A DNA stretch of 64,000 bases from Bradyrhizobium sp. BR 10289 (GTDB lineage: Bacteria > Pseudomonadota > Alphaproteobacteria > Rhizobiales > Xanthobacteraceae): positions 62,001 through 126,000 of the forward strand of contig NZ_JACOFR010000012.1 of NCBI RefSeq assembly GCF_019455385.1. The letters are read 5' to 3'. Shown here in pieces: positions 7,772 through 10,906 of the stretch. Made by a program: the position numbers and the translations under genes. A model generated the notes under the pieces. The model ran no database searches and had not been told where the DNA came from. It saw only the letters and a program-made list of their open reading frames with translations. How positions within the stretch are numbered: position 1 is the first letter of the stretch; the number at the start of each line of letters is the position of its first letter.

Positions 7772-8404
7772 ATGCCGATCGATTCATCAAAATTCTTCGA
7801 CTCCATTCGGGTGAAGCCGCGGGGCAAGCAGCCCGAGGTGAAGCCGCGCGACACCGTCGTGGGCTGCGAGTGGGCCGGGTGCCAGAACAAGGGCGCGCAC
7901 CGCGCGCCGAAGGGTCGCGAGAACCAGCGCGAGTACTGGCACTTCTGCCTCGACCACGTGCGCGAGTACAACCAGAACTACAATTTCTTCTCCGGCATGA
8001 ACGCCGACGCGGTCGCGCGCTACCAGAAGGATGCGCTGACCGGCCATCGTCCGACCTGGAAGATGGGCGCCAATGGCGGCAAGAAGGGGACGGAAGCCGA
8101 CATCGACATGGCGTCCGATCCGTTCAGCATGTTCTCCGAGATCAACGGCCGCGCCAGCTGGCGCAAGGGCCCGGAGGCCGAGCCCAAGGCCGAGACCCGC
8201 AAGGTCATGAACGCCGAGCGCAAGGCGCTCCAGGTCATGGGCTTGGGTCCGAATTCCACGCTCGCCGACGTCAAGAGCAAGTACAAGGCGCTGGTCAAGC
8301 AGCACCACCCCGACGCCAACGGCGGCGACCGCTCCACCGAGGACCGCCTGATCGAGATCATCAAGGCGTATAACTATCTGAAGACGGTGGTGCGGGAGGC
8401 CTGA
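7772..8404 (+). CDS. J-domain (DnaJ-like) protein
   Basis: 210 residues. The J domain is at the C-terminus (about 145-205) with the HPD motif in KQHHPDANGGD, so it should stimulate an Hsp70. The N-terminal half is specific to alphaproteobacteria and carries Cys/His residues (CEWAGCQNKG and HFCLDH) that may bind metal. From recall, this gene usually lies directly before cobS in Rhizobiales; here cobS is about 8 kb away, beyond an accessory block. Confidence 0.88.
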   Translation: MPIDSSKFFDSIRVKPRGKQPEVKPRDTVVGCEWAGCQNKGAHRAPKGRENQREYWHFCLDHVREYNQNYNFFSGMNADAVARYQKDALTGHRPTWKMGANGGKKGTEADIDMASDPFSMFSEINGRASWRKGPEAEPKAETRKVMNAERKALQVMGLGPNSTLADVKSKYKALVKQHHPDANGGDRSTEDRLIEIIKAYNYLKTVVREA

Positions 8405-8417
8405 GTCTCGCCACGTC

Positions 8418-8505
8418 GTAGCCCGGATGGAGCGCAAGCGTAATCCGGGGCTTTCTCACACAACGATAAGCTTTCCCGGATTGCGCTTCGCTCCATCCGG
8501 GCTAC
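8418..8505. repeat. Palindromic intergenic repeat, GTAGCCCGGATGGAGC family
   Basis: The arms GTAGCCCGGATGGAGCGCAA and CGCTCCATCCGGGCTAC, with inner CCGGATTGCG, form a long near-perfect hairpin between convergent genes. This family is widespread in proteobacteria. Only one copy is seen here. Confidence 0.8.
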
Positions 8506-8509
8506 TTCA

Positions 8510-9604
8510 TCACCTCTCCGGCATCGCCCCCACATATGACGAGCTCGGCCGGATCAGCCGCCCCGTGCGCTGCTGCTCGCGCGCATGCGCGGTCCAGCCT
8601 GCGCTACGCGCCACCGCGAAGATCGGCGTGAACGCCTGCCGCGGGATCGCCAGCGCATCGAGCAGGATGGCGGTGAAGAACTCGACATTGGTCTCCAGCG
8701 GCCGCTCCGGATTCTTCTTCCGCAGTGCGCTGCGGATATACGCCTCGACCTCGCCGGCAAACGGCAGATCGGTGCCGTTGGAGGCGAGCGCCTCGACCGC
8801 GGTCTTGAGCACGTCGGCGCGCGGATCGCGCACGCGATAGACGCGGTGGCCAAAACCCATCATCCGCTCGCCGCGCGCCAGCGCCGCATCGACCCACGGC
8901 TGGATGCGCTCGCGCGAGCCGATCGCATCGAGCATCTCCAGCACCGGCTCCGGCGCGCCGCCATGCAGCGGGCCGGTGAGCGCGCAATAACCCGCGGTCA
9001 CAGCGGCGAACAGATCGGCCTGCGTCGAGGCCACCACGCGCGCGGTGAAGGTCGAGGCGTTCATGCCGTGGTCGCTGGCGGTGACGAGATAGGCATCGAG
9101 CGCGGTCACCTCGCGCGCCGCCGGCGCACGCCCGTGCAGCATGCGCAGCGTGTCGGCAGCATGGCTGACGTCAGGATCGGGCGCGATCGGATCGAGCCCC
9201 TTGGCGCGCCGGACCAGCGCGCCCGCGATCACCGGGAACGCACCGACGATGGTCGCCTCGTGTTCGAGCCCGTGCTCGGCGCGAAGCCCGGCGACCGCCG
9301 CACGAAAGCCGTCGACGATGCCCATGCCGCGCGTCGCCGGCAAAAGCTCGTCCAGCCGCGCGTAGGCGCGCTCGCGCGCCACGCCCAGCTGCGAGCGCAC
9401 ATTGGCCTCGCTCAGCGTGGTCTTGCTGGCGCCGTTCCAGAGCCGGGCGGTCACGCCCTCGAAGCTCGAGTCGGCCGCGAGCCGGCCGACATGCTCGCCG
9501 GCGATGATCAATTCGCCGCGCTCGCCATCGACATGGCTCAGCACGGTCTCGGCCGCGGGAACGCCGTCCAGCCCGATCTGGCTTTTGGTGAGGTGGATGT
9601 TCAT
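8510..9604 (-). CDS. Citrate synthase/methylcitrate synthase family protein
   Basis: 364 residues with the citrate-synthase fold: His in GPLHGGA, His in MGFGHRVYRVRDPRA and NVEFFTAI at the third catalytic position (Glu where classical enzymes have Asp; I recall Glu in related short-type homologues). It probably condenses acetyl-CoA or another acyl-CoA with oxaloacetate. ATG 9604 has AAGGGAGA upstream. It is divergent from a second citrate-synthase-like gene that carries a DNA-binding domain, with only 81 bp between them, which suggests the neighbour controls it. It is unlikely to be the main TCA enzyme, which is usually about 430 residues. Confidence 0.88.
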   Translation of the reverse strand: MNIHLTKSQIGLDGVPAAETVLSHVDGERGELIIAGEHVGRLAADSSFEGVTARLWNGASKTTLSEANVRSQLGVARERAYARLDELLPATRGMGIVDGFRAAVAGLRAEHGLEHEATIVGAFPVIAGALVRRAKGLDPIAPDPDVSHAADTLRMLHGRAPAAREVTALDAYLVTASDHGMNASTFTARVVASTQADLFAAVTAGYCALTGPLHGGAPEPVLEMLDAIGSRERIQPWVDAALARGERMMGFGHRVYRVRDPRADVLKTAVEALASNGTDLPFAGEVEAYIRSALRKKNPERPLETNVEFFTAILLDALAIPRQAFTPIFAVARSAGWTAHAREQQRTGRLIRPSSSYVGAMPER

Positions 9605-9656
9605 GGCCCAATCTCCCTTTTGCACTGCACGGCGGGAAAATCGGACCTCTCGACAG

Positions 9657-9684
9657 ATTGATCAATCTTGATTACATAAATCAA
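9657..9684. promoter_or_regulatory. Candidate operator between two citrate-synthase-type genes
   Basis: Two adjacent dyads are visible: ATTGATCAAT at 9657-9666 and TTGATTacataAATCAA at 9668-9684 (6-bp arms, 5-bp spacer). The second ends one base before the ATG at 9686. The site lies 53-80 bp upstream of the other gene's start. The neighbouring HTH-citrate-synthase protein is the obvious candidate ligand, which is inference. Confidence 0.55.
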
Positions 9685-9685
9685 T

Positions 9686-10906
9686 ATGAAAAATTCCGAT
9701 GGGCTCTACCTGTCCGCCCGGGAGGCCGCCGCCGAGCTCGCGATTTCGCCGGCCACCCTCTACGCCTATGTCAGCCGTGGGCTGATCCGCTCCGAGCCGA
9801 CGCCGGACTCGCGCAAGAACCGCTACCGCGCCGAGGACGTCCGTGCCCTCAAGGAGCGCCGCGTGCCATCGCCCGAGCCGCGCGGCCTGCGCAGCTTCGA
9901 TGCCGATCTGCCCGTGATGGACACGGAGATCTCGACCATCACCGAGGACGGCGCGATCTACCGCGGCGTCAATTGCGTCGATCTCGCCGAGAACGACACG
10001 CTGGAGCACACGGCGACGCTGCTGTGGGATGTCTCCGAGGTCGATCCCTTTGACCCGGACAATCAGCCGGAAATCTCCGACGAGATGCGCGCCATTGCGG
10101 AGGCCGCGCGCCGGGCCGCACCGATCGACCGGGCCATCGCCGTACTCGCGCTTGCTTCCAGCGCGGACGCGCGCGCCTTCACCCGCGCGCCCGATGGCCG
10201 CGCCATGGTCGGCGGACGCATCGTCCGGCTGCTGGTTGCGACCATGCTCAACGCCGAGCCGTCGCCCGAGCCGCTGCATCAGCAGATCGCAAGAGCCTGG
10301 GCGCCCGACAACAAGCATGCCCCCGATCTCATTCGCCGCGCGCTCGTGCTGCTCGCCGACCACGAATTGAATGCCTCGACCTTCACCGCGCGCTGCGCCG
10401 CCTCGACCGGCCTCAACCTCTACGATTCCGTCATCGCCGGCCTCGCCGCGCTGAAGGGCCCAAAACACGGCGGCGCCGGCGTGCTGGCTTCGCAGCTCGT
10501 GAAAACGCTGATCGACCGCGACGTCGCGCCGATGGTGCGCGAGCGCGTCGCGCTCGGCGAACGCTTCGCCGGCTTCGGCCACGGCGTCTACAAGCGCGGC
10601 GATCCCCGTGCGCAATCGCTGCTGAATGCGCTCACTCGCGCCGGTGCGCCGCGCAAATTCACGCGCGAAGTGCCGGAAAGGATTATCGAGGCGACTGGCG
10701 AGCTGGTGAACATCGACTACGCGCTCGCCGTGCTCGTGCACGCGCTGCGCTTGCCGGCCGGCAGCGAGCTGGCGTTGTTCGCGATGGCGCGCAGCGTCGG
10801 CTGGATCGCGCATGCCAGCGAGCAATTGCAGTTCGGCAAGCTGATCAGGCCGCGGGCGAGGTATGTGGGGCCTGCGCCGGGGCGGAGGGCGGCGACGGCC
10901 ACCTAG
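9686..10906 (+). CDS. HTH-citrate synthase fusion protein, putative regulator
   Basis: 406 residues. Residues 8-60 form a MerR/excisionase-type helix-turn-helix ([20 protein letters not shown], then [14 protein letters not shown]). The rest is a citrate-synthase domain that keeps the catalytic positions: [17 protein letters not shown] and NIDYALA. The start fits the HTH domain but has no ribosome-binding site and abuts a dyad, so the message may be leaderless. I infer that it binds acyl-CoA or oxaloacetate-like ligands and controls the divergent citrate-synthase gene and itself. It could instead be an active enzyme with an accessory DNA-binding domain. Confidence 0.85.

Follow-up and report, generated by a model that had tools for sequence, protein, structure and literature searches.

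Several kinds of bacterial transcription factor, among them MocR/PdxR, ROK, PutA and BirA, combine a helix-turn-helix (HTH) with an enzyme fold able to bind a pathway metabolite, and a protein joining an HTH to a citrate-synthase (CS) fold would work likewise. Among the matches listed from the open-licence PMC literature, we found no CS-fold member of these enzyme-fold transcription factors and no paper on a DNA-binding CS fusion or on an HTH-CS protein as a regulator. MerR and HTH_17 regulators include BldC-like and excisionase-like HTHs, and target promoters of the MerR family hold the operator in a 19-20-bp spacer. According to excerpts of the published work on Caulobacter crescentus, CitB is a functional CS, 37% identical to Bacillus subtilis CitA and able to complement a gltA mutant of E. 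coli, whereas the CS-like CitC does not complement it (PMC7083601). By locus number, the two genes (CCNA_03757/03758) are adjacent and place a functional CS beside a CS-like protein, as in the locus described here. CitC may be a studied orthologue of the HTH-CS regulator; if so, an active CitB next to a non-complementing CitC is what one would expect of an enzyme accompanied by a regulator without enzyme activity. The excerpts do not treat CitC as a DNA-binding regulator, and neither helix-turn-helix nor MerR occurs in the main text (PMC7083601). In Xanthomonas citri, excerpts describe the repressor PrpR, which is encoded upstream of prpB and binds the palindrome GTTGCAA-N2-TTGCAAC in the prpB promoter, and which the authors compare with Salmonella PrpR (PMC12153269). 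As far as these excerpts go, the upstream-encoded repressor and the palindrome in a prpB promoter are shared with the system proposed below, but the binding site differs, and identity of the two proteins was rejected on this difference in motif.

The window, by which we mean the whole 64,000-nucleotide stretch of Bradyrhizobium sp. BR 10289 DNA that was analysed, contains a protein in which, as a sequence-only reading had claimed, an HTH is fused to a CS domain with its catalytic residues kept. Also in agreement with that reading, the fusion faces a CS gene, of the NF009005/PRK12350 type, across a divergent intergenic gap of 81 bp (9605-9685; Table 1). Judged from sequence, the fusion is probably a dedicated local one-component repressor of itself and its neighbour, with a CS fold that binds oxaloacetate or a tricarboxylate. 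That regulator and CS form a pair linked by an operator is well supported, and as far as operator and pairing are concerned, the case for a regulatory role is strong.

Table 1 Features of the HTH-CS locus (positions in the window)
Feature	Position	Strand	Basis or remark
Divergent citrate synthase, NF009005/PRK12350, 364 aa	8510-9604	-	435.8 bits, cutoff 332; ATG at 9604
Shine-Dalgarno GGAG of CS gene, 8 nt before ATG	9613-9616	-	sequence
Predicted -10 of CS promoter, GATTTT, 17-bp spacer	9637-9642	-	class alignment
Putative -35 of regulator's own promoter, TCGACA	9650-9655	+	by inspection
Palindrome ATTGATCAAT named in the sequence-only reading	9657-9666		sequence
Whole conserved operator TTGATCAATCTTGATTacataAATCAAT	9658-9685		gap alignment
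Predicted -35 of CS promoter, TTGATC, inside operator	9660-9665	-	class alignment
Operator core CAATCTTGAT-N7-ATCAA	9663-9684	+	recurs in distant relatives
Dyad TTGATT-N5-AATCAA (TTGATT-acata-AATCAA)	9668-9684		one base before regulator ATG
Putative -10 of regulator's own promoter, TACATA, 17-bp spacer	9673-9678	+	inference
HTH-citrate-synthase fusion, proposed regulator, 406 aa	9686-10906	+	ATG at 9686
HTH_17 (MerR-like) domain, residues 8-59	9707-9862	+	29.1 bits, cutoff 27
Citrate-synthase domain Citrate_synt, residues 74-390	9905-10855	+	212 bits, active-site residues retained

The fusion reaches the gathering score of HTH_17, as MerR/HTH_17 regulators do, but stays below the cutoff of the classical MerR model (21.8 bits, cutoff 28.2) and would use a CS domain as its effector domain instead. 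Among 32 related proteins, profile matches at E<=0.001 were obtained with HTH_17 in 31, MerR_1 in 26 and MerR in 24. The TLYAYVSRG motif of the HTH is nearly invariant across relatives, which in the 80 named loci is partly a product of selection since these were picked with peptide patterns including TLYA[YN]VSRG; a separate set of 25 regulators was chosen without this pattern. An AlphaFold model of the fusion (32 sequences; pLDDT 90.7) consists of an HTH and a CS fold with a low-confidence linker at residues 60-76. Its best Foldseek matches were CS and PrpC chains, as befits a member of the CS fold. No HTH-CS chain was found among the PDB sequence and Foldseek matches listed, and the HTH alone matched no PDB sequence.

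The CS domain carries H226, H261, H299, R308, D344, R369 and R388, which we take, following the CS numbering, to have the catalytic and oxaloacetate-related roles. In 80 regulators (the window protein and 79 named loci from the best 80 of 557 relatives, the incomplete L213 being left out), H226, H261, R308, R369 and R388 were retained throughout and H299 and D344 in 79 each, so that the catalytic His-His-Asp set is present. The separate set of 25 regulators showed one replacement of H226 by Gln (L045) and one of H299 by Asn (L047). With its catalytic and oxaloacetate-binding residues kept, the fusion could be a trigger enzyme, i.e. also an active (methyl)citrate synthase whose DNA binding is controlled by catalysis or by bound substrate. 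We consider this quite improbable. Position 303 is Pro in 53 of the 80 regulators (best 80 of 557) versus a basic residue in 43/44 partner CS proteins, which weakly suggests an altered CoA contact, PrpC proteins having Thr there in 11/11; in addition, CitC, the possible orthologue from Caulobacter, fails to complement the E. coli gltA mutant in the excerpts cited (PMC7083601). The complete active site would also suit a diverged CS in which the N-terminal HTH is incidental and regulates nothing, a reading that has very little chance of being right given the HTH_17 matches in 31 of the 32 relatives scanned, the linkage to an operator and the separate clade of the regulators. Moreover, the fusion obtained at best 164.9 of the 332 bits required for the nearest CS subfamily, and it reached the curated cutoff of none of the 22 NCBIfam CS models listed.

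In a tree of 30 rows, the regulator CS domains formed one clade (100/100), separate from the partner CS, PrpC and the genome's other CS proteins; two further CS-like matches lie on other contigs of the same genome (C22, C11). The two divergent proteins had been called paralogous, which holds in the deep sense only, and a recent duplication of the partner CS as the origin of the regulator was rejected because the two clades are separate. At the position of the catalytic Asp of CS, all 44 partner CS proteins have Glu, as does B. subtilis CitA (2c6x), the best PDB sequence match, whose fold is common to both proteins. The canonical Asp is kept by the regulator (D344), and speaking of an enzyme turned regulator therefore needs care. 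With respect to CitA-related citrate synthases, the partner is the enzyme and the CS domain of the regulator belongs to a clade of its own.

Both dyads named in the sequence-only reading were found in the 81-bp gap. The first, ATTGATCAAT, is nested in a perfect 14-bp palindrome, AGATTGATCAATCT (9655-9668), and its left TTGAT is kept in Bradyrhizobium and in the prpB class, not in every relative. The second, said to touch the start codon, is indeed next to it and ends one base short of the ATG. In 99 distinct orthologous gaps (72-100% protein identity, identical gaps removed beforehand), the mean major-base frequency was 0.95 for the operator (9657-9685) compared to 0.58 for the CS-side gap (9605-9648), and 9649-9656 was conserved as well (0.93). 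The expected conservation of the dyads was thus borne out, but the unit that is widely conserved is CAATnTTGAT-N7-ATCAA (9663-9684) rather than the two dyads as named. Since common descent makes the Bradyrhizobium gaps dependent on one another, distance provides the stronger test.

This test covered 80 named loci, the best 80 of 557 relatives, which extend from Bradyrhizobium, the nearest named relatives (up to 96% identity), to Pseudoxanthomonas and Paraburkholderia. The pattern CAATnTTGA[AT]-N7-nTCAA was present within -120 to +45 of the start in 62 of these loci and had no match on either strand of the remaining 803,468 bp of flank. Allowing N6 or N7 between CAATnTTGAT and ATCAA, 65 loci matched with 0, 73 with <=1 and 74 with <=2 mismatches, with off-target matches of 2, 2 and 11, respectively. 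Genomes assigned to other phyla are included in the 73 loci, and such loci assigned to Acidobacteriota, Chloroflexota and Actinomycetota as have a site carry it in the N6 form. Three of the 80 loci had degenerate sites only (L220, L226, L228). Perfect sites outside the counted stretch were seen in L245 (-128) and in L263 and L270 (about -1030), and these are probably real operators since they lie upstream of the same gene clusters. In L263 and L270 (Chloroflexota), the operator is located ~1 kb upstream on the divergent-CS side, with space for another gene before the regulator.

The TTGAT/ATCAA half-sites resemble those of the FNR family, and the operator might thus be owned by another factor, e.g. 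of the FixK/FNR type, with the HTH-CS protein unrelated to the site. The FixK/FNR box is TTGAT-N4-ATCAA, however, and was rejected as a match since the arms here are N7 apart (N6 in some relatives). Ownership by another factor is highly improbable also in view of the single exact site in the own genome, the agreement of site and full regulator in 60/60 genomes and the retention of the site beside differing target genes. The 7.76-Mb genome has one exact core site, that of the window, and five others at 2 mismatches; a genome-wide regulon was rejected on this count of core sites.

The fusion was detected in 128 of 146 same-genus genomes and, rather than being split in relatives, was matched from residue 1 in 126 of them, the two exceptions being a partial match (G014) and a frame-disrupted copy (G077). 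Wider samples, which share genomes, contained it in 15/149 (family), 33/199 (order) and 48/398 (phylum) genomes at search cut-offs of 1e-60 for genus and family and 1e-40 for order and phylum. In 60 same-genus genomes, the site (<=1 mismatch) was found in 50, all with the full regulator, and was absent from the other ten, namely nine genomes without the regulator and G014. The partner CS is also missing in 16 of the 18 genus genomes that lack the regulator. In the remaining two (G074, G089), the partner CS is kept and cut by a contig end, as in G014, so assembly breaks may explain these three genomes. The regulator-CS pair and the operator are gained or lost together, and a conserved operator at the putative own promoter that co-occurs with the gene is one of the features expected of an autoregulated local transcription factor. 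A second site in a different context was present in three same-genus genomes (G017, G019, G057); these extra operator-like sites were set aside, since the intergenic sequences around them resemble one another but not the HTH-CS gap and no target was recognised beside them. The operator-like matches L288:2535, L289:2372 and L290:439, from three same-genus genomes in similar intergenic sequence, read TCAATCTTGATT followed by GCAAT and apparently belong to an unrelated repeat.

The operator stays beside neighbours that differ from locus to locus, most of them belonging to citrate or methylcitrate chemistry. Divergent genes were identified by divergent-ORF extraction and Pfam/NCBIfam, greedy longest-ORF annotation being unreliable in GC-rich loci. 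Among 53 such genes (L214-L273; best 80 of 557), Pfam assigned 23 to CS, 15 to CoA-transferase III and 12 to the isocitrate-lyase/PEP-mutase family, with one isopropylmalate dehydrogenase (LeuB-like), one HMGL-like protein and one CitMHS; NF009005 was matched by 23 of the 53 and methylisocitrate-lyase models by 12. A second CS-like gene follows in 11 of 12 prpB loci, and the three that were scanned are 2-methylcitrate synthases (NF009006, above cutoff). In the 20 loci outside the HMM scan (L194-L213), the neighbour was a CS by tblastn in 20/20. Short contigs or unclear ORFs kept L218, L226, L228, L249, L262, L263 and L270 out of the scan, with a CS match upstream in L218, L249, L263 and L270. 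The CoA-transferase III proteins facing the fusion (L221, L227, L237, L272 and similar) are mostly 460-490 aa long, with the Pfam match starting at residue 206 or 216 in two scanned singly, and are found in Burkholderiales, Pseudomonas and some alphaproteobacteria; their substrate may be a tricarboxylate. Bradyrhizobium sp. NAS80.1 carries a second, distant HTH-CS paralogue (L268:980-3697) that faces a CitMHS citrate transporter and has an operator-like site with one mismatch.

A strict promoter scan detected no sigma-70 site in 9560-9760, and a strict terminator scan likewise found none. On the target strand, the operator commonly starts with TTGATC, TTGACG or TTGACA, with a mean of 4.0-4.6 of 6 matches to a -35 element. 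At exactly 17 bp from it, an A2/T6 -10 hexamer occurred in 0.99 of 109 Bradyrhizobium-type and 1.00 of 17 prp loci and, as a partial signal, in 0.69 of 16 CoA-transferase and 0.47 of 51 remaining loci, classes that were assigned by hand (some members by eye, the fourth being a remainder of mostly CS neighbours) with identical sequences and loci of <60 upstream bases left out. Other spacings were mostly near 0, except in the prp (0.71 at 9 bp, 0.29 at 19 bp), CoA-transferase (0.50 at 12, 0.25 at 16, 0.19 at 10 bp) and remaining loci (0.20 at 18, 0.18 at 11, 0.16 at 16 bp). The -10 elements of the CS promoters are weak, reading GACCTT in 67/109 Bradyrhizobium-type loci. The predicted target spacer of 17 bp is not the 19-20-bp spacer of MerR-type promoters.

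In the mechanism that we propose, the HTH would bind the operator at 9658-9685, and the CS fold would act as effector domain; it is probably a dimer, as CS enzymes are, and would present two HTHs to the half-sites. The bound protein would cover the -35 of the divergent CS gene together with the spacer and -10 of its own promoter, in which case both genes are most likely repressed. The affinity for DNA might then shift when the retained pocket holds oxaloacetate, citrate or 2-methylcitrate, with the ligand relieving repression. Many divergently arranged one-component regulators repress themselves and activate the divergent gene, and the main alternative to repression of both genes is that the same regulator and operator do so here, from a site overlapping and upstream of the target's -35. 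The operator core would lie at about -33 to -54 of a predicted CS transcript start near 9630, the position of a class II activator, and the weak -10 elements together with the overlap of operator and -35 would also fit such an activator. The fair -35 within the operator and the optimal 17-bp spacer argue instead that the promoter needs no activator, and activation of the target is in our judgement unlikely.

The regulator message had been said to have no ribosome-binding site. In line with this, an SD-like 4-mer (GGAG, GAGG, AGGA, AAGG or GGTG) was present in the 20 nt before the regulator ATG in 0/99 distinct gaps, compared to 98/99 before the CS start. In the window, translation cannot begin farther upstream because of an in-frame TAA at 9677-9679, and 74/99 orthologous gaps have an in-frame stop at this place. 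With a transcript start expected at about 9685-9686, approximately at the ATG, the regulator mRNA would be leaderless. Such mRNAs are known in the genus, as excerpts of a transcription start map of strain USDA 110 report 192 starts exactly at start codons (PMC4842269).

Bacteria seem to use the HTH-CS fusion widely as a gene switch, which probably senses a citrate-cycle compound and controls its neighbour, mostly a gene of citrate or methylcitrate metabolism. As a proposed regulator, the protein would belong to the enzyme-fold transcription factors. A broader proposal, which we regard as doubtful, is that an ancient family, spread over Proteobacteria and genomes assigned to Acidobacteriota, Chloroflexota, Gemmatimonadota and Actinomycetota, senses through a complete and possibly catalytic CS active site, such that an operator grammar common to the family would let occupancy or turnover of oxaloacetate and acyl-CoA switch CS, the methylcitrate cycle, citrate uptake or a CoA-transferase. 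For a common family in which the searched family models see an HTH and a CS domain only, the analysis puts forward a function, an operator and a set of targets. If the reading is true, the CS fold joins the enzyme folds used as transcriptional sensors, which could account for an extra CS-like gene without gltA-complementing activity in some bacteria. The operator grammar would then allow target prediction in hundreds of genomes, and a direct oxaloacetate or citrate sensor would be useful for metabolic engineering.

Between the partner CS gene and a DnaJ-domain gene (7772-8404), 8418-8505 is occupied by a perfect inverted repeat, GTAGCCCGGATGGAGCG, whose 17-nt arms are separated by 54 nt; it looks like a REP-type intergenic element, and these two arms are the only copies in the window.
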